In this document: positions 1,622 through 32,226 of the stretch, in pieces
How positions within the stretch are numbered: the stretch's first letter is position 1
Layout of the letters: every line of letters begins with the position of its first letter
Assembly (NCBI GenBank): GCA_017450065.1
Contig: JAFSYI010000079.1
Location: forward strand, 1-56,120
From: Lachnospiraceae bacterium
GTDB taxonomy: Bacteria > Bacillota > Clostridia > Lachnospirales > Lachnospiraceae
Length of the DNA: 56,120 nt
Reading direction: 5' to 3'
Made by a program: the position numbers and the translations under genes
Notes under the pieces: generated by a model
The model's database searches: none
The model's input: the letters and a program-made list of their open reading frames with translations, nothing else
Told to the model about the DNA's origin: nothing

Positions 1622-2347
1622 ATGTATGTAGAAGTGACCTACAAGATGCTCTCCGTGATAGATGTTGAAAAATATCACACAGGGAGATATGGGGCTCCGG
1701 GATGCAAGAGACAACCCAAAAGGAAAAGGACTCCGGAAGAGATCAGGAACCAGAATTACATAAATGCCTGTAAGAGGTTAAGGAGGATCATAAACAATAA
1801 CTTCAAAGCCGGAGACCTGCACTGTACATTGACATACAAACAGGAGAATAGACTTTCCGCAGAGGACTCAAAGAAGGAGCTCGTCAACTTCCTCCGGAGG
1901 ATGAAGGGTGCATACAGGAAAAGAGGATACGAGCTCAAATGGATAGCAGTGACCGAATACCTGAACAAGGCTATCCATCATCACCTGATCATCAATATGA
2001 TTCCGGATACGGTTACCCTGCTGCAGGAGCAGTGGAGGCCGGGCAGGGTACACTTCACGCCCCTGGATGATTCGGGAGACTACAGAGCTCTGGCCGATTA
2101 CCTGATCAAGGAGACCAAAAAGACATTCGGAGATCCTGAAGCAGCCTGTAAGGAAAGATATTCAAGGTCAAGGAATCTCATCATCCCGGAGCCTAAGAAG
2201 AAAGTAATATCCTCAGCGTCCTTCAGAAAGGCACCAAAACCGATTAAAGGATATTACATCGACACTGAGTCGGTATGTACGGGGTTCAATCCGGTAACGG
2301 GTTACCCGTATCAGACCTACACCATGATCAAGATCGGAGGCGGATAG
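1622..2347 (+). CDS. HUH-type Rep-like protein (rolling-circle replication initiator family)
   Basis: The 241-residue protein carries the three HUH endonuclease motifs in order: motif 1 HCTLTY (67-72), motif 2 with a histidine cluster HHHLI (119-123), and motif 3 DYLIKETKK (159-167), where Y160 would be the nicking tyrosine and the lysine lies three to six residues on. This resembles the REP_ORF2/G2P-like proteins common in Gram-positive phages, plasmids and inoviruses. In that family the tyrosine nicks one strand and stays covalently linked to the 5' end. TAGGAG precedes the start. In a tailed prophage it may start replication or be a co-opted relative. The repeats just upstream are candidate binding sites. 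Confidence 0.75.
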   Translation: MYVEVTYKMLSVIDVEKYHTGRYGAPGCKRQPKRKRTPEEIRNQNYINACKRLRRIINNNFKAGDLHCTLTYKQENRLSAEDSKKELVNFLRRMKGAYRKRGYELKWIAVTEYLNKAIHHHLIINMIPDTVTLLQEQWRPGRVHFTPLDDSGDYRALADYLIKETKKTFGDPEAACKERYSRSRNLIIPEPKKKVISSASFRKAPKPIKGYYIDTESVCTGFNPVTGYPYQTYTMIKIGGG

Positions 2348-2806
2348 ATGGAAACGGCAGACATTTATATCACAATATCCCGAAAAGCTCCGAGAGCGGG
2401 TCCGGGTTCATACATAGCAGTCCTGGAAGCGACCACGGCGTCCGGACAGACAGGAACAAAGACCTTAAGGAAGCGGATTGATGAATGCACTCCGCACAGT
2501 CTCGAACTAATGGCCATCATAGACGCCTTCAAATGCTTTACGCGTAACTGTTCAGTCAGGATCCACTCGGATCACGGCTGGATGCAGTCCATCAGGACAA
2601 ACGGATGGCTCGACAGATGGAGAGAACAGGATTTCAAAAAGGGCGGAGCTGATATCACACACGCAGACCTGTACAGGCAGCTCGAAAGCATAGAGACAAC
2701 CCGGGGCCTAACCATTGACGAAGTAAACGCGGATCTTGGCTCTTATACCATATGGCTTAAGAGTGAGATCGAAAGAGAAAAACAGACAGAAAAGGAGAAG
2801 AAATGA
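2348..2806 (+). CDS. RNase H-like protein
   Basis: A 152-residue protein that starts on the base after the previous stop, with GGAGG upstream. ELMAIIDAF (about 53-61) and RIHSDHGWMQSI (about 72-83) match the glutamate-helix and the central aspartate strand of the RNase HI fold, and WREQDFKKGG resembles the region after it. The first catalytic aspartate of the usual D-G-S strand is not obvious (the N-terminus reads METADIYITIS), so activity is uncertain. A role in removing RNA primers during phage replication would fit its place beside the Rep-like gene. Confidence 0.65.
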   Translation: METADIYITISRKAPRAGPGSYIAVLEATTASGQTGTKTLRKRIDECTPHSLELMAIIDAFKCFTRNCSVRIHSDHGWMQSIRTNGWLDRWREQDFKKGGADITHADLYRQLESIETTRGLTIDEVNADLGSYTIWLKSEIEREKQTEKEKK

Positions 2807-3189
2807 AAACAGTAAACGGAGTATGTAAGTATTGTGGCCAGATGCGGATACTGCAGGTATCCGAGGATAAGGCCTACACGAACGAGGATCTTGACAGGAT
2901 AGCAGCGAGTGAATGCGACTGTGATGTTGCTACCTTGCTCCGCAAGCGTAACATGGCATTCGGGAACCTTGAAGGGATGCTTGACGAGAGATTCCCCGAC
3001 GACGCTACCGATGACAAGGAGAAGGTTATCAAGGAGCTTCTCAGGACAGGAGGGAAGCTTATGGGCGAGACAACCATAGATTCCCTGAGCTTTGCATCCG
3101 GAAGCAAGAAGTACAGCCTGTCGCTCTCGCAGAAGCTTACCTTCAAGCTTAAGATCGCAAATACGGAGACGGAAGTACAGGAAGCATGA
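2803..3189 (+). CDS. Phage protein with N-terminal CxxC, unknown function
   Basis: A 128-residue protein whose first residues, MKTVNGVCKYCGQMRILQ, contain a zinc-ribbon-like CxxC; a second cysteine pair (ECDCD, about residues 37-41) could complete a metal site. The middle is helical and acidic, and the C-terminal part (SLSQKLTFKLKIANTETEVQ) looks like beta strands. ATGA overlaps join it to the RNase H-like gene before and to the HNH-like gene after. No function is assigned. Confidence 0.6.
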   Translation: MKTVNGVCKYCGQMRILQVSEDKAYTNEDLDRIAASECDCDVATLLRKRNMAFGNLEGMLDERFPDDATDDKEKVIKELLRTGGKLMGETTIDSLSFASGSKKYSLSLSQKLTFKLKIANTETEVQEA

Positions 3190-3515
3190 AGAAGAGAGCC
3201 AGATCGATATTCCCCCAGGCGGACGGAGAATGCTTCTTGTGTGCGAGGCTTGAAAGATATCCGAGGTATCACAAGCATCTGGAAGCGCACCATATCTATT
3301 ACGGCTGCAACCACTCTCAGTCGGACAGATACGGATTCCTGATAAACCTGTGCGCACACCATCACAGAGGCGATCAGATGGGGAACAAGGATGCCGTCCA
3401 CTCGGAGGATAAGAACGACTACGGCGATTATATTAAGCGCTGGGCACAGGCCGAATACGAGAAGACCCACACAAGGGAAGAATTCATGGAGATATTCGGC
3501 CGCTCATGGTTATGA
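3186..3515 (+). CDS. HNH-type nuclease-like phage protein
   Basis: A 109-residue protein with a CFLC pair near residue 17, then AHHIYYGCNHSQSDRYG and LCAHHHRGDQMG. This is a typical compact phage HNH/beta-beta-alpha-metal arrangement with a structural zinc (two cysteines in each half) and a catalytic His-His. It is distinct from the terminase-linked HNH gene at 10914. Proteins like this in early regions may be recombination or repair nucleases; the substrate is unknown. Confidence 0.65.
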   Translation: MKKRARSIFPQADGECFLCARLERYPRYHKHLEAHHIYYGCNHSQSDRYGFLINLCAHHHRGDQMGNKDAVHSEDKNDYGDYIKRWAQAEYEKTHTREEFMEIFGRSWL

Positions 3516-3691
3516 TCCGAACGGTTAAACCCTAAACCGATTGGATACAGGTTGAAACACCAGGGCGGGAGCCCCGCCGCCCGAAAGAAACTGCCGGTAC
3601 TATTTGTATCACGCTTGGGCTTAAGCGGGAAGTCAGTCATGCCCCCCAGCAGAGAGATTAACCTGCTTAAGCCCTTAAGGGAGAAAAAAAG
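3516..3691. other. Intergenic stretch with nested inverted repeats
   Basis: Three structures fill the gap. GGCGGG (3564-3569) and CCCGCC (3573-3578) form a tight GC hairpin. GGGCTTAAGCGGG (3617-3629) and CCTGCTTAAGCCC (3662-3674) pair over 12 of 13 bases across a 32-nt gap. CCCTTAAGGG (3672-3681) is a palindrome just before the ribosome binding site of the next gene. A short TTG-start frame crosses the gap but looks non-coding. The layout suggests a structured leader RNA or a protein-binding site. Confidence 0.45.
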
Positions 3692-4003
3692 ATGGGTTTT
3701 CTGTACAAATACGACATATACGCCCCTGATGGCAGCATCGTAGGCAGAAATATACCGAGGAACAGGATCCCGGAGCTTATAGGCACCACCCGGGGAACCA
3801 TTGACGTATGCTTAAGACATATGGGAATAGGACAGAAGACAACACTGAAACAGTATATCATAGTGTGTTCCTACGAAAAAGCAAAGACCGACATCCATTC
3901 AAGTAAAGCCTCAGCAGCACAGATGATGTCGGAGTGGGACAAGGTATGCAGGCCATTCAGGATATTGGCTCAAAGGAGAGAAAATGACAGGAGCGCAATG
4001 TAA
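3692..4003 (+). CDS. Phage protein, unknown function
   Basis: A 103-residue protein starting eight bases after GGGAG. The first half (YKYDIYAPDGSIVGRNIPRN) and NRIPELIGTTRGTIDVCLRHMG resemble a small helix-turn-helix in which ELIGTTRGTIDVCL would be the recognition part, but the match is weak. The tail is basic. It overlaps the start of the next gene by 20 nt. The structured leader upstream suggests separate control. Confidence 0.5.
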   Translation: MGFLYKYDIYAPDGSIVGRNIPRNRIPELIGTTRGTIDVCLRHMGIGQKTTLKQYIIVCSYEKAKTDIHSSKASAAQMMSEWDKVCRPFRILAQRRENDRSAM

Positions 4004-6236: not shown

Positions 6237-7373
6237 ATGGATCAGATCAATATAAACACTGTGAACGATTATGAGAGCCTGAAAAAGGCTCTCAACAATG
6301 AACTGAATGCCTCGGCATTGCATTTCTGCAGAATCGGATATCTGCTCAAAAGAGCAAGGGATGAAAGGCATATACTTATGGACTCGGCATATTCAAACGT
6401 AAACGAGTTCGCCCTGGCAGAGTTCGGCCTTGATACATCTCAAGTGAGCCGCTTCATAAGGATCAATGACCGTTTCTCGATAGGCGGATACTCCGAACAC
6501 CTTAAAAGCAAATATGAGGGATACGGCTCAGCGAAGCTGTCTCTGATGCTCCTGCTTCCGGACGAGATCAATGAAGAGCTCTCGCCGGAGTATTCAAAGG
6601 CTGAGATAAACACTATAAAGGCCGAGTACGAAGAGGAGAACAGGATATCTGATCTTGAAGTCCTGATGGAAGACAGCGCCGGTGTTCCGGATGAGTTCCT
6701 GACGGCTGTGGTAAAGGAACTTAATGACGAGAATGAGGATGTAGCTGCCTTTTTCGCCGAAACAATGAGGCTTGCGAAGAAGATGAACATCGAACCGAAC
6801 GAGGAGGATATCAAAGAGGCTTATATGCCGGATGGAGATAAGACATATTCGATCAGGATCCCGGGACAGGGAAGATTTCTAATCAACATGAAGCCATCGG
6901 ATATATCCGTAGTCAATTTAAGAGCTCCGCAGGATAAGTCGACGGTATCGTGGGAAGAGTTTACAAAGCTTATTCTTACTGATATGGCCACAAGGGATTA
7001 TCCGGAACCGGAAAAACCCAAACAGAAACCCAAGAGTAAGAAGGTGGAACCGGCAAAAACGAAAATTGCACCGGTGCAAACGGAAAACGTACAAGAAATG
7101 CCCAAAACGGACGAAAAATGCACGGAAACGGACGAAAACGCACGGGAAGAGGATAAGCAGGCAGCAGGTGAAGAGGATAAACAGGCAGCAGGCCCGAATG
7201 AAGCTCAGGCGGCAGCAGGCGATATATTAACATCTTCACAGACTGACGCTCTGCAGATGATTGATGAAATCAGGCACATGATAGCGCCTGATGATGGATC
7301 AAGGCCTGACTGGAGCGATATTTTCGGGAAGATAGCAAAGCTGAGCAGCTATGTTAAACAATTCATGTATTAA
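6237..7373 (+). CDS. Phage protein of DNA-metabolism region, unknown function
   Basis: The start was moved to the second ATG because TAGGAGG lies seven to eight bases before it; the protein is 378 residues. The N-terminal 100 residues contain NASALHFCRIGYLLKRARDE and FALAEFGLDTSQVSRFIRIN, which resemble a ParB/KorB-like helix-turn-helix adaptor. The middle is acidic. Residues about 250-330 are low-complexity Lys/Glu/Pro/Ala with a tandem EEDKQAAG repeat, and the C-terminus is helical. The palindrome TTGCACCGGTGCAA (7066-7079) lies in the low-complexity part and encodes IAPVQ. The protein may be a partition-like or replication adaptor; this is weakly supported. Confidence 0.5.
   Translation: MDQININTVNDYESLKKALNNELNASALHFCRIGYLLKRARDERHILMDSAYSNVNEFALAEFGLDTSQVSRFIRINDRFSIGGYSEHLKSKYEGYGSAKLSLMLLLPDEINEELSPEYSKAEINTIKAEYEEENRISDLEVLMEDSAGVPDEFLTAVVKELNDENEDVAAFFAETMRLAKKMNIEPNEEDIKEAYMPDGDKTYSIRIPGQGRFLINMKPSDISVVNLRAPQDKSTVSWEEFTKLILTDMATRDYPEPEKPKQKPKSKKVEPAKTKIAPVQTENVQEMPKTDEKCTETDENAREEDKQAAGEEDKQAAGPNEAQAAAGDILTSSQTDALQMIDEIRHMIAPDDGSRPDWSDIFGKIAKLSSYVKQFMY
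7066..7079. promoter_or_regulatory. Second copy of palindrome TTGCACCGGTGCAA
   Basis: An exact copy of the 14-bp core found at 495-508, here inside the low-complexity part of the coding sequence where it reads as Ile-Ala-Pro-Val-Gln. It is a candidate protein-binding site; function unknown. Confidence 0.4.
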
Positions 7374-8333: not shown

Positions 8334-10250
8334 ATGAAACTGTCAATTATAATTCCTTGCTACAATGCCGAGAACTATCTGCCGGATCTGCTTCAGTGCC
8401 TCGAAGGCCAGATTATGAAAATGGCATATAATTCCCCGGAAACCGACAAAGAGGTTGAAGTATTCCTTATCGATGATGGCTCGAAGGTTCCTGTATCCGC
8501 AGATTATCCGTGGGTTCAGATATACCGCAAGGAGAATGAAGGCCCGGGAATTGCCCGGAATGTCGGCCTTGATCATATGACCGGAGACTACTTCACATTC
8601 ATCGACGCCGACGATATGGTGGCGGATTATTACCTCAGCGCTATATTCGACAAGATCGAAGCGGAAGACTTTGATTATTGCTACCTTTCCTGGACGACAA
8701 TGCCGGGAGGCTGGAACTGCACAGTAAAGCTTACATCAGTCGAGGATAAATTCCCGGGATTCAACCTGTGCGTATGGAACCGCGTATATAAGACGGCCAC
8801 ATTCGGACGGCAAAGATTCAATCCAAAGAAGCTGTGGTCCGAGGATGCCGATTTCATATATCGCCTGAACGAGAGAGGGAAGAAATCATTTATAAGCGAG
8901 ATCATGTATTACTATCGCTCGGATACACCTGATTCATGGACGAAGAGAATGTTCCGCGGAGAGCTTGATTACAACAGGATCGTGTATAACCTCAAAGAGG
9001 TCAGACCGGATGATACGGAGCTGCTCGAAGAGATCAGACGCGAATATGCCGACAATGAGATAGTCCTGCTCACGGACAGCAACGGCATTCCGGAACTGGA
9101 AAAATACTGCATGATCATGAAATACAATACATCCTGCTCCGGGATGGAGCTGCGAGGAGATCCATTCTCAGGATTCCGGAAGATACAGAGGCCCTATGTG
9201 ACACAGGTGCTTGTGTATGTATCTGCAGAACATGAGATAGGCGGCATTGAGACCTTCACATATAACTTCTGCGCCCATATGAGCAAATATTATGACATTA
9301 CAGTCCTGTATGATGCCAAATTCGCCAGGGAACAGATGAACAGGCTTACAGAGATAGTCCCGGTGATCAAGAACACAGACAGGACTATTATCTGCGATAC
9401 GGCGATAAATACCCGGATAGTAAAGGATCTGCCTAAGAATATCAAATACAAGCAGAGCATACAGATGTCACACACCTGCAAGATGAAACTGTGGGGACAG
9501 CTTTCGGTTCCACAGGATAAGGATTTCAAGGTTTTTGTTTCGGATGTGGCCGCCAGGTCTTTCGGCGAAAAAGAAGGCGAATATGAGGTAATCCATAACC
9601 TTACGCTTCCGACCGAAACAAAGAAAGCCCTCCTGCTTGTATCGGCAACCCGATCCACTCCGGAGAAGGGCATGAAGAGGATGCTTATGCTTGCACGGCA
9701 CCTTACAAGATCGCAGATCCCGTTTATATGGCTCTATTTCACAAAGGACCATATAAACGAAGCACCTAAGAACCTCATACACATGGATCCGACCCTGGAT
9801 ATATCGCCGTATATCAAAATGGCAGACTATCTCGTGCAGCTGTCAGATTCCGAAGCATTCGGATATTCGATGGTTGAGGCGCTTGAACTGGGAACAGCGA
9901 TCATAACTCCACCGTTTGAAGTCCTTCCGGAGCTGGGGATAGAAGAGGGAAAGCATGGGTATGTGCTTCCGTGGGATATAGACAGCTTCGACTGCAGCAA
10001 GCTCCTTAAGATCCCGAAGTTCAAATACAAGAGGGATAACGAGAAGATAGTAAAGCAGTGGCGCGACCTTCTGGGATATACCAAACCGACGCACAAATAC
10101 AAACCGTCGGAGAATGTGACAGTGAAGATTATAAAGACCTACAAGGATATAGCGCTGGATCGGGTTGTCACCAAAGACACGGTGATGAAGATGCCAAGAG
10201 ACAGGGCTCAGATAGTACAGCAGGCAGGATACGGGCAGATAGAGGGATAG
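8334..10250 (+). CDS. Two-domain glycosyltransferase (GT2-like plus GT-B-like)
   Basis: The 638-residue protein joins two transferase folds. Residues 1-230 are GT-A/GT2: IIPCYNAENY near the start, LIDDGS, ENEGPGIARNVG and FIDADDM, the DxD-type metal and nucleotide-sugar site. Residues about 290-590 are GT-B-like: a Rossmann half, VSATRSTPEKGMKRML (about 431) and SDSEAFGYSMVEALELGTAI (about 503), which is the donor-binding end of GT4-type enzymes. GGAGGG precedes the start. It may modify phage DNA bases, virion proteins or the host surface. Its place among early and middle genes, after an HD hydrolase, leaves all three open. Confidence 0.8.
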   Translation: MKLSIIIPCYNAENYLPDLLQCLEGQIMKMAYNSPETDKEVEVFLIDDGSKVPVSADYPWVQIYRKENEGPGIARNVGLDHMTGDYFTFIDADDMVADYYLSAIFDKIEAEDFDYCYLSWTTMPGGWNCTVKLTSVEDKFPGFNLCVWNRVYKTATFGRQRFNPKKLWSEDADFIYRLNERGKKSFISEIMYYYRSDTPDSWTKRMFRGELDYNRIVYNLKEVRPDDTELLEEIRREYADNEIVLLTDSNGIPELEKYCMIMKYNTSCSGMELRGDPFSGFRKIQRPYVTQVLVYVSAEHEIGGIETFTYNFCAHMSKYYDITVLYDAKFAREQMNRLTEIVPVIKNTDRTIICDTAINTRIVKDLPKNIKYKQSIQMSHTCKMKLWGQLSVPQDKDFKVFVSDVAARSFGEKEGEYEVIHNLTLPTETKKALLLVSATRSTPEKGMKRMLMLARHLTRSQIPFIWLYFTKDHINEAPKNLIHMDPTLDISPYIKMADYLVQLSDSEAFGYSMVEALELGTAIITPPFEVLPELGIEEGKHGYVLPWDIDSFDCSKLLKIPKFKYKRDNEKIVKQWRDLLGYTKPTHKYKPSENVTVKIIKTYKDIALDRVVTKDTVMKMPRDRAQIVQQAGYGQIEG

Positions 10251-29312: not shown

Positions 29313-30653
29313 ATGGCAGAAGTAACAAAACCGATCGTGCTGGACGAAACAGCAAAACAACTCGTGGGAGCCTGCAGGGGTATCGCAGAGGCTATCAGCA
29401 ACAACAAGATGGGAGTGGTTTACGGCTTCCATATCGACGGATCCGAATCGGATCCTGCAGCAAAGGTAACATATTTAAGGGATGCCGTAGGAGCTACACC
29501 GGCAAAGATGAACTTTACATCAGGGCAGTTTGATTACGGTTCCTGGGGATCTGCATTTTTCATGCCCCGCCCGTGTATGCTCAAATCGGATGGTTCCGTG
29601 GATTATTACCTGAGCCCGAACGATTACACCAAGAAGGCGGACGGAGTCACCGCTTCCGATGTGGCCAACACTTCATATAATGGCAATGCCATGATGGAGT
29701 GGGGACGCGACGGGAAAAAGATCTGGATGAAGATAGTTCCGGATATCAACCATCTGGGAGCAAGCGTGTATATATCGGATTACCAGGCGGACGCAGATTT
29801 CCATGATTGGCCGTTCCATAATTCTGCAGGTCAGAGCATGGATCATTTCTATACGGCGATCTATAACGGATCAGTGATCAGCAACAAGATGAGATCCTTA
29901 TCCGGCCAGCAGGTGAGCAAGACCCTGACGGCAGCTGCGGAAATCACAGCAGCGCAGGCAAACAATCCTTCCGGTTCCGGAATCATGTGGAACACGGAGC
30001 TCTATTCGGATATCACCCTGATCAACATGCTCCTGATCCTTATAGGCAAGAGCGTGAACACACAGGCAGTATTTGGCGAAGGTCTCCATACCGGAGGATC
30101 CGAAGCGATTAACGATAATTTCCGAACGGGCGTGCATAATACGAAAGGCCTGTTCTATGGCACAAATTCGGGAGCAATCTCTGACGGCTCATACGGAAAC
30201 GCTGTCAAAGTATTTGGCATGGAGAACTGGTGGGGCTTCCAGTGGAGAAGATATCAGGGTCATGTACTGTCAGGCGGTGCTCAGAAAGTAAAGAATACCT
30301 ACGGTACGGAAGACGGCTCGACATCCAACAGCTACACAGTAGACGGAGCTCCTACAGGCGCCGGATATAAGAATACCGGAGCGACAGCTTTAAGCGGGAC
30401 ATCCGGAAACTATATCAAGAACGAGTACTATACGGAAGATGGCATGTTCCCTTGCGGAGCTCTGGACGGCAGCTCCTCGACTTATTACTGCGATGCCTGC
30501 TGGTACCACAATGACGGCGTCCGGGTTCCTCTGCGCGGCGGCTATTCGTACTATGGTGCTATGGTCGGGGCTTTCTGCGTCTCCCTGGCCAGCGATGCTT
30601 CGAATGCCGGGTGGGCCGTCGGCGCGGCCCTGTCTTGTAAACCGCTTGCTTAG
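29313..30653 (+). CDS. DGR target: C-type-lectin-like phage receptor-binding protein
   Basis: A 446-residue protein preceded by AAAGGAGG. The first 130 residues look like an attachment domain. The C-terminal half is a formylglycine-enzyme/C-type-lectin-like fold, with ENWWGFQWRRYQGHVLSG (about 308-325) and a last region DGVRVPLRGGYSYYGAMVG ending in DASNAGWAVGAALSCKPLA. Residues 402-439 are encoded by the variable repeat. Of these, 12 differ from the template-encoded residues (407, 411, 413, 414, 417, 422, 424, 426, 427, 433, 435, 436). In this family the lectin fold tolerates huge sequence variety, and the target usually tips a tail fibre. Its place at the end of the fibre cluster supports a host-recognition role. 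Confidence 0.93.
   Translation: MAEVTKPIVLDETAKQLVGACRGIAEAISNNKMGVVYGFHIDGSESDPAAKVTYLRDAVGATPAKMNFTSGQFDYGSWGSAFFMPRPCMLKSDGSVDYYLSPNDYTKKADGVTASDVANTSYNGNAMMEWGRDGKKIWMKIVPDINHLGASVYISDYQADADFHDWPFHNSAGQSMDHFYTAIYNGSVISNKMRSLSGQQVSKTLTAAAEITAAQANNPSGSGIMWNTELYSDITLINMLLILIGKSVNTQAVFGEGLHTGGSEAINDNFRTGVHNTKGLFYGTNSGAISDGSYGNAVKVFGMENWWGFQWRRYQGHVLSGGAQKVKNTYGTEDGSTSNSYTVDGAPTGAGYKNTGATALSGTSGNYIKNEYYTEDGMFPCGALDGSSSTYYCDACWYHNDGVRVPLRGGYSYYGAMVGAFCVSLASDASNAGWAVGAALSCKPLA
30516..30629 (+). repeat. DGR variable repeat (VR)
   Basis: 114 bp within the target gene, aligned without gaps to the template repeat 382 bp downstream. There are 15 mismatches, all where the template has A: seven become T, five become G and three become C in my reading, which should be recounted by alignment. 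The 3' end GTCGGCGCGGCC is A-free and matches the template except for one A position, as expected for the region where cDNA priming begins. The last seven codons of the gene lie outside the repeat. Confidence 0.95.
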
Positions 30654-30665
30654 AGAGGGTGAATC

Positions 30666-30866
30666 ATGAGCGCAGCGATTGAGAGGGAGATACTTCTCCC
30701 TGATAAGCTTAACACCGAACTGATCTGCAAACTGCAGGAGATTATCGAGAGCCTCGTAGACCTGAACAAACTGACGATAGATGTACTTGCTCAATATATC
30801 AATGTTGAAGAATACGAGCACATGATCTCAAAAATACTGAGCGGCGATGATGCAATAATAAAGTAA
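30666..30866 (+). CDS. Small helical protein between VR and TR (candidate DGR accessory)
   Basis: A 66-residue protein, MSAAIEREILLPDKL..., predicted nearly all helical (LICKLQEIIESLVDLNKLTI), placed where classical DGRs carry the accessory gene avd. Avd proteins are usually about 110-130 residues and form a pentameric barrel of four-helix bundles; this one is about half that length and lacks their typical basic surface residues. GAGAGGGTG precedes the start. It may be a reduced accessory factor or an unrelated fibre partner. It ends 31 bases before the template repeat. Confidence 0.6.
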   Translation: MSAAIEREILLPDKLNTELICKLQEIIESLVDLNKLTIDVLAQYINVEEYEHMISKILSGDDAIIK

Positions 30867-30897
30867 AAATTACAGGGCTTTGCTTCACGACTCCGTG

Positions 30898-31011
30898 GGC
30901 GTCCGGGTTCCTCAGCGCGGCGGCAATTCGAACAATGGTGCTAAGGTCGGGGCTTTCTACGTCAACCTGAACAACGATGCTTCGAATGCCAGGTGGAACA
31001 TCGGCGCGGCC
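30898..31011 (+). repeat. DGR template repeat (TR)
   Basis: 114 bp with 23 adenines, grouped mostly in AAC and AAT codons when read in the VR frame. Translated in that frame it would give GVRVPQRGGNSNNGAKVGAF followed by YVNLNNDASNARWNIGAA. Asn codons are the usual DGR choice because random bases at the A positions can yield many residues but no stop. Fifteen of the 23 adenines differ in VR and none of the 91 other positions does. Confidence 0.95.
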
Positions 31012-31077
31012 TAACTTATCCGAGTACAGAGTAATAACTAAATGTGGAGCATAGTCCTTGCCCCTCGGCAAAAATAA

Positions 31078-31100
31078 ACTCACAGCAAGCATCTGTGAGT
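31078..31100 (+). promoter_or_regulatory. Hairpin in the TR-RT spacer
   Basis: ACTCACAG (31078-31085) and CTGTGAGT (31093-31100) form a perfect 8-bp stem with a 7-nt loop, 67 bases after TR and 35 bases before the RT start. It has no U-tract, so it is unlikely to terminate. It may be a structural part of the template RNA. Confidence 0.6.
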
Positions 31101-31134
31101 AGTGAATACGAAAACGGATGAGAGGATAAGACAA

Positions 31135-32226
31135 ATGAAATCTTACAAACATTTAATGGAGAAATGCATCTCCGCTGAAAACATAAAGCTTGCTATAAGG
31201 AAAGCCGCCAGAGGTAAGAGAGATCGGAAGAGAGTACAGATGATACTTGCAGATATGAATAATTACGTGCCGCACTTCCAAATGATGGCCATAGGTTATA
31301 AACACAGAAACAAGGCTCCGAAAACCATATATGACGGAATATCACGGAAGAAGAGGCAAATCATAGTTCCGAGCTTTGACGAACAAGTGCTACATCACAT
31401 GATAGTTAATGTTTTGGAACCGGTCATAATGAAAGGAATGTATGAGCATGTACACGGCTCTATTCCCAAAAGAGGACCAGCGGCCGGGAAGAAACAGATC
31501 CTGAAATGGCTTACTCGTGACCGGAAGAACTGCAAGTACTGTTTAAAGATGGATATAAAACAGTTCTTCGGTTCGGTAAATCACTACCTGTTAAAGCAGT
31601 ACATGGGCAGGTACATCCATGATGATATGTTCATGAAGCTTGTGGGTGAGGTACTCGATACGACAAAGATAGGCCTGCCGCTCGGGTTTCATACGAGCCA
31701 TTGGCTCGCGAACTGGTATCTACAAGGACTCGATCACTATATTAAAGAGGATCTTAAAGCTGGCCATTATATGAGATATATGGATGATATGGTCATATTC
31801 GGCAGTAACAAGCGCAAGCTGCATAAGATCCGGGAAAGCATAGAGAAATATCTCAACGAGCAGCTCGGGCTTGAACTCAAAGATAATTATCAGGTATTCC
31901 GAATGGAGTACTGCGATAAATACGGCAATATACATGGGCGGGATCTTGATTTCATGGGTTTTCGCTTCCGACCGGGCCGCGTGATAATGAGAAAGTCCAT
32001 TATGTTCCGGATGTGCCGCAAGGCTAAAAGAGTCGGTAAGAAAGAAAAACCGACAATACATGACTGTAAGCAGATGATGTCAGCTCTTTCGTGGCTTAAG
32101 AGTACCGACACATACGGCATGTATCTTATACACATCAAGCCATATGTAAACTTTCAAAACATGAAACGCCGGATATCAAGATATGATAGGCGGCAGAACA
32201 GGAGGCTTAATTATGGAATGGTATAA
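31135..32226 (+). CDS. DGR reverse transcriptase
   Basis: The start was moved to ATG 31135 (GAGAGG upstream) from an in-frame GTG; the protein is 363 residues, typical for DGR enzymes. It has the palm motifs: KYCLKMDIKQFFGSVN (D140 metal ligand), IGLPLGFHTSHWLAN (about 179-193, motif 4) and YMRYMDDMVIFG (Y215-M-D-D catalytic box). Motif 4 in DGR enzymes usually reads I/L/V-GxxxSQ; here the Gln is His. The enzyme copies TR RNA into cDNA with errors at A, and the cDNA then replaces VR. It overlaps the next gene by 14 bases. Confidence 0.95.
   Translation: MKSYKHLMEKCISAENIKLAIRKAARGKRDRKRVQMILADMNNYVPHFQMMAIGYKHRNKAPKTIYDGISRKKRQIIVPSFDEQVLHHMIVNVLEPVIMKGMYEHVHGSIPKRGPAAGKKQILKWLTRDRKNCKYCLKMDIKQFFGSVNHYLLKQYMGRYIHDDMFMKLVGEVLDTTKIGLPLGFHTSHWLANWYLQGLDHYIKEDLKAGHYMRYMDDMVIFGSNKRKLHKIRESIEKYLNEQLGLELKDNYQVFRMEYCDKYGNIHGRDLDFMGFRFRPGRVIMRKSIMFRMCRKAKRVGKKEKPTIHDCKQMMSALSWLKSTDTYGMYLIHIKPYVNFQNMKRRISRYDRRQNRRLNYGMV

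Follow-up and report, generated by a model that had tools for sequence, protein, structure and literature searches.

A probable tailed-prophage diversity-generating retroelement without detectable Avd, and a covarying RNA helix at the edge of its template repeat

Results

Layout of the cassette and its repeats

We analysed a stretch of DNA of 56,120 nucleotides (the window; contig JAFSYI010000079.1 of a Lachnospiraceae bacterium) and focused on a prophage cassette at 29313–32226 with the organization of a diversity-generating retroelement (DGR). As an initial annotation had described, a target gene with its variable repeat (VR), a small open reading frame (ORF), a template repeat (TR) and a reverse transcriptase (RT) gene follow one another in this order, and the ORFs at 29313–30653, 30666–30866 and 31135–32226 are open. 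Alignment of the VR (30516–30629) with the TR (30898–31011) by script, a check that the annotation had proposed, reproduced its gapless 114-bp match and gave 15 mismatches: all 15 lie at TR adenines (n = 23) and none at the remaining 91 positions, so the claim that only adenines are exchanged stands. The VR bases at these sites are T (6), G (6) and C (3). All 23 TR adenines occupy codon positions 1 and 2, and the changes from TR to VR alter 12 residues in the C-terminal end of the target, as first counted; seven of the 12 replace Asn by Tyr, Ser or Ala. TR/VR identity ends abruptly on either side.

The features of the locus, in window coordinates, are:

29313..30653, + strand: target gene, 446 aa, phage tail protein phrog_5302, with a variable C-terminal domain predicted to be C-type-lectin/FGE-like
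30516..30629, + strand: VR, 38 codons; the stop lies 7 codons further on
30666..30866, + strand: small ORF, 66 aa, predicted helical; not Avd by sequence
30684..30701, strand not applicable: candidate DNA hairpin/cruciform, 7-bp stem AGGGAGA/TCTCCCT, 4-nt loop TACT
30898..31011, + strand: TR; codon position 3 holds none of its 23 adenines
31012..31132, + strand: structured spacer RNA, 111.7 bits with model R1 (see below), overlapped by an Rfam RT-18 match at 31059–31133
31014..31020, + strand: 5' strand of helix P1, at the TR 3' edge; the first pair is an A–A mismatch, leaving 6 bp in the window
31125..31131, + strand: 3' strand of P1, 3 nt upstream of the RT start codon
31058..31071, + strand: hairpin P2, TTGCC-CCTC-GGCAA
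31079..31124, + strand: P3 (31079–31081/31122–31124) and P4 (31090–31095/31115–31120)
31135..32226, + strand: RT, 363 aa, with RYMDDM and the motif LPLGFHTSH

The initial annotation did not mention the spacer RNA (31012–31132), the DNA hairpin (30684–30701), the SH motif of the RT or that no Avd could be detected.

Two similar 114-bp stretches might also result from an ordinary duplication followed by random divergence. However, the chance of 15 mismatches all landing on 23 of 114 positions is 2.4e-13 and the identical layout recurs in tens of relatives; the alignment refutes this explanation, whose probability is practically nil. A 221-bp query of the TR region against the bacterium's own genome (3.22 Mb, 88% complete) matched the TR, the VR and one chance-level sequence (E 0.6), and revealed no further TR or VR.

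As in DGRs, the VR lies at the C-terminal end of the target, within a domain predicted to adopt a C-type-lectin-type fold. The target had no sequence match in the PDB; by analogy with Mtd it may bind a receptor. Genes for terminase, portal, protease, capsid, tail tape-measure protein and amidase lie at 12–35 kb of the window; from ~39 kb on, the genes are bacterial (carbamoyl-phosphate synthase, seryl-tRNA synthetase, Rnf), the layout of an integrated tailed phage. Among RT relatives in named genomes, 13/18 are from Bacillota, four of those 13 from Lachnospiraceae. A distant blastn search of phages with the cassette gave no match.

The reverse transcriptase and its SH motif

The RT matches RVT_1 (1.1e-18) and phrog_1423 (1.5e-90). 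Its best solved-structure relative is 8ub7, an entry titled 'Reverse transcriptase' that we take to be the Bordetella DGR RT. YMDD is present and relatives at 27–75% identity carry TR/VR pairs, placing the enzyme in the DGR group. RT family, structural relative, A-only mismatches and a C-type-lectin-type target all agree with the DGR identity first proposed.

In region 4, DGR RTs typically though not obligatorily carry (I/V/L)GxxxSQ, found in 90% of DGRs according to PMC3521204. Among 71 aligned RTs (near-duplicates included), 66 have SQ and five have SH; the latter (window, L004, L005, L060 and L061) form a single clade with support 100/99. A second scan, whose motif pattern failed in some RTs, added at least five SH enzymes (L102, L103, L111, L140, L163). 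Mismatches fall at A in 15/15, 20/20, 14/14, 13/14 and 19/19 cases in the clade of five, a natural setting for testing whether adenine-restricted mutagenesis can do without the SQ glutamine. The motif itself was dropped as a novelty: DiGReF already lists SH as a rare variant whose DGRs still exchange adenines (PMC3521204).

Sister elements vary at template adenines

A TR/VR pair lies next to the RT in 61/71 loci of a first set and 44/47 of a second, with 920/952 and 723/739 mismatches at A; the mutation spectrum compiled for the non-SH group leaves out near-duplicates. Because our pair finder penalised non-A mismatches, these shares are not independent evidence; the independent evidence that the family is active comes from comparing VR sequences between sister elements. 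Ten sister pairs have identical TRs. In four of them the VR differs, at TR adenines in 18/19, 11/12, 14/14 and 14/16 positions, and the upstream flanks are 97.8–100% identical. In five sister pairs whose TRs differ, VR differences fall on shared TR adenines in 21/23, 20/30, 10/12, 11/13 and 14/15 cases. In L012/L013, each VR matches its own TR at both TR-differing positions, as copying from the TR predicts.

Avd and the 66-aa protein

The cassette had been called complete. Its parts are indeed present; the word needs a qualifier, since we found no Avd homologue, though about a quarter of DGRs have no accessory gene (PMC7290462), so that we do not present the absence of Avd as new. No scanned ORF of the window matched an Avd Pfam family, and a PF05635 search of the own genome found no avd beside the TR. 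Its sole match, a weak one to this 23S IVP/Avd-like family (G000:C59:319-651, also L164; 15.4 bits), lies on another contig. As a control, PF05635 matched in L050, L054, L056 and L059, at coordinates in the VR–TR gap and above the cut-off only in L054; it gave no match in the records of L004, L005, L012, L024 and L036, and missed BPP-1's own Avd, so the model misses divergent Avd proteins. Distant relatives with a VR–TR gap of 478–582 bp encode Avd where tested, and the gap measures 55–167 bp in 80/105 pairs (near-duplicates included).

Could the 66-aa protein replace Avd? Its ORF occupies the avd position and has relatives in four other DGR loci (L005, L004, L104, L106). The ratio of non-synonymous to synonymous divergence (dN/dS) is 0.11–0.17 in the seven of ten comparisons for which it was computable, with dS saturated in six; with its relatives, this makes it look like a real gene. 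Structure prediction gives one long and one short helix, in a modest model (predicted local distance difference test 77.9, predicted template-modelling score 0.45). Against such a substitution, most pairs leave only the short VR–TR gap of 55–167 bp, the protein is half as long as Avd, and a tblastn search of every fetched locus detected it nowhere beyond the four relatives. It also had no match in phages. A role as this element's Avd substitute is therefore doubtful, with a real chance of being right.

A structured RNA between template repeat and reverse transcriptase

DGRs are already well known in phages; what this locus adds is the spacer RNA and its edge helix. The spacer scored 40.0 bits with Rfam RT-18 at 31059–31133, just below the gathering threshold of 41.3, and related DGR spacers reached gathering scores in 15/19 loci (RT-18 in 10, RT-4 in 3, RT-14 in 2). 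An alignment of 15 spacers showed clear covariation in P2, P3 and P4, with P1 nearly invariant in that set.

From these 15 spacers, window included, we built the model R1, which matched 53/77 sources (training set included, one match per source). The 24 without a match were L025, L026, L040–L043, L067, L074–L077, LMMB, BPP-1, L031 and L069 (little or no spacer) and nine viral loci with long VR–TR gaps (L050–L056, L058, L059). Two scanned members of the distant, long-gap relatives (L050–L059, L077), L054 and L058, have RT-14-type spacers. In a second set 55/56 sources matched, including 48/48 loci picked afresh solely on their RT protein. The other eight sources gave seven matches, L097 (RT-18) being unmatched; the seven are mostly not independent (L085/L086 are the earlier L079/L080; L095, L096, L099 and L100 were found by R1 and L098 by RT-18). 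In L155 the match lies ~1.2 kb away from the RT.

Scanning RNA first, R1 matched five of 392 genomes of the order, the own genome and four others. An RT match lies downstream in 4/4 of these, and three have a TR/VR pair with 16/16, 14/14 and 19/21 mismatches at A; for the fourth, only ~77 bp of contig precede the RNA. An RT-18 search of 291 class genomes gave three matches, two above cut-off, and an RT-17 search of 249 phylum genomes gave none; its controls gave none either, which makes this negative uninformative.

A structured DGR spacer is not new, since that of BPP-1 recruits RT–Avd and primes complementary DNA (cDNA), according to PMC12875486. The BPP-1 spacer matches Rfam RF03022 Phage_DGR; Rfam does have a family named after DGRs, and we dropped the contrary idea. 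Among the literature matches listed, none named both the RT-number RNAs and DGRs. The RNA places Rfam RT-18, RT-4 and RT-14 in DGR spacers and provides an RNA-first route to such cassettes.

Helix P1 at the template edge

P1 joins the TR edge to the bases immediately preceding the RT gene, and covariation supports it. On 41 distinct rows, both sides changed in 7/7 pairs (26 cells, versus 2.7 when shuffled and at most 4 when slid); in the second set, with 51 distinct rows, both sides again varied in 7/7 pairs and 97.1% were paired, both alignments being fitted to R1. A model-free ranking of helices in 37 loci placed the conserved P1 first in 25 and second or third in eight, the window among them; in the other four (L025, L026, L036, L063) it was absent or in another register. 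A free closing-helix search that left out L045 gave a modest excess (mean score 17.4 versus 15.4 for cross-locus pairs). For 28 distinct P1 sequences, the own partner paired at 6.5/7 positions versus 4.9/7 for partners from other loci, a total reached in 0/20,000 permutations (98/108 rows; the 10 with gaps in P1 were dropped). In the Rfam RT-18 and RT-4 models, unlike in R1, the P1 3' strand is unpaired and the TR edge is not reached. Within 31115–31131, the tandem GGATGAGA/GGATAAGA gives the TR-edge strand two competing partners, a possible RNA switch.

Where does P1 lie relative to the rewritten stretch? Among hand-compiled R1 matches with TR/VR pairs, P1 starts no more than 6 nt from the end of TR–VR identity in 67/72 loci. 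In 65 loci aligned on P1 (near-duplicates, some outliers and loci with a TR edge more than 15 nt from P1 excluded), non-A identity was 99–100% up to −5 and 76% at −1; within P1 it was 78–89% at bases 1–4, 0/8 at the fifth and 48% at the sixth, then 7–15%. The pair finder's penalty accounts in part for the high identity within the TR, but not for the point where identity ends relative to P1. TR adenines differ from the VR in 59/61 cases at −2 and −1 (T or C in 53), in 81/85 from −5 to −1, and in 46/57 at the fifth P1 base (32 to G). Such skewed adenine differences look like fixed differences, not mutagenesis, and some lie inside the TR/VR pairs counted for the first set. From this profile, copying seems to stop ~4–5 nt from P1.

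P1 could instead mask the RT ribosome-binding site and control translation rather than mark a cDNA start. In the window and 10 more of the 25 loci listed, no Shine-Dalgarno-like stretch was seen apart from GAGGA in the P3/P1 3' strand, and in L034 and L044 the stretch there is AGGAG. However, P1 is kept in six of the 25 (L014, L027, L038, L029, L068, L041) with the RT start 13–55 nt off and a Shine-Dalgarno-like stretch in between, although P3/P1 holds a further one in L038 and L041; in L008, L024, L048, L036 and L032 the pattern used detected none. Nor does translation control predict P1 at the end of TR–VR identity. We consider it rather unlikely.

A covarying TR-edge helix common to tens of elements is a concrete, testable boundary signal, which bears on how Avd-less DGRs begin cDNA synthesis. 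In this lineage the template RNA might carry its own primer through P1: a nick or a 2'-OH at the 3' end of the second strand would start cDNA exactly at the TR edge. The 3' end of the second P1 strand points towards that edge, a primer-like geometry, and the a1/a2 stem that frames retron RNA offers a parallel. We hold the primer idea distinctly unlikely; if true, RNA pairing and not Avd would define the TR edge and with it the stretch that is rewritten.

Weighing the evidence on the whole element

The candidate hairpin lies 54 bp downstream of the VR. Hairpins scoring at least 16 occur in 29/44 loci (near-duplicates excluded) versus 3% of shuffles. This agrees with the DGR cruciform rule of a GC-rich hairpin after the VR (4–34 bp, GRNA loop consensus; PMC3240598), apart from the loop sequence and the greater distance.

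What does the cassette do? We read it, with a probability of about 0.93, as a tailed-prophage DGR without detectable Avd whose action diversifies a tail protein in its C-terminal lectin-like domain. One transcript would carry the TR, the spacer RNA and the RT message; the RT would bind the spacer core (P2–P4), and cDNA would start where P1 marks the 3' edge of the TR. The TR would be copied with errors at adenines, and the cDNA would replace the VR, perhaps with the help of bases in common at the 3' edge and of the DNA hairpin beyond the VR.

Several observations weigh against this reading: (i) the region-4 motif is LGFHTSH, not SQ; (ii) the window spacer folded alone prefers 31015–31022/31115–31122 over P1 and P4, which speaks against P1 for this copy; (iii) the window hairpin has a TACT loop off the GRNA consensus and a distance outside the 4–34 bp range (PMC3240598); (iv) in 6/10 identical-TR sister pairs the VR is unchanged, with flanks identical as well; and (v) 99 relative genomes held no near copy of the cassette and, together with the own genome, no second VR version of the locus. 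The 99-genome search returned two distant matches (G024 and G016), with a DGR in both. The earlier proposal to look for VR versions in sister genomes yielded them in related elements only, where they differ mostly at TR adenines; one may fairly conclude that the element has been at work in this lineage, although its own locus yielded no second version.

The cassette could also be a relic that acted in the past and is now inactive, as the SH motif, the undetected Avd and the lack of observed VR variation at the locus might suggest, together with prophage decay. Yet the RT is open with YMDD, the terminase, portal, protease, capsid and tail genes are open, and A-biased pairs occur throughout the five members of the SH clade. 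In addition, the VR shows no non-A difference from the TR, which leaves little time for decay. We judge inactivity quite improbable.

Comparison with known systems

The BPP-1 DGR (mtd-avd-TR-brt) shares with the window the order target-TR-RT, A-only mismatches (19/19 in BPP-1), a lectin-fold target (predicted in the window), a structured TR–RT spacer RNA and a hairpin after the VR (PMC3240598). Unlike BPP-1, the window has a 66-aa protein and no detected Avd, an RT with SH instead of SQ, and a spacer model with P1 that does not match the BPP-1 spacer. The Avd-less crAssphage DGR LMMB has the same target-VR-TR-RT order without avd (PMC7290462). In contrast to this likeness, its RT is only 28.7% identical to that of the window and far apart in the tree, and R1 finds no match in it. 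The LMMB DGR reportedly belongs to lineage 3 of the Wu 2018 classification.

Other observations

In L085, a locus of relative G024, the RT match (2205–3273) changes frame near codon 145, as if the RT were interrupted or misassembled; the TR/VR pair of the locus still has 19/19 mismatches at A. On a 244-kb viral contig (L136), the TR by the RT has two matching VRs, which lie several kb further downstream (repeats at 3653–3757, 6902–7006 and 8749–8853) and show 12/12 and 14/14 mismatches at A; here a single cassette serves two targets. In the window, upstream of the terminase gene, 8334–10250 encodes a protein of 638 aa that carries two glycosyltransferase domains.
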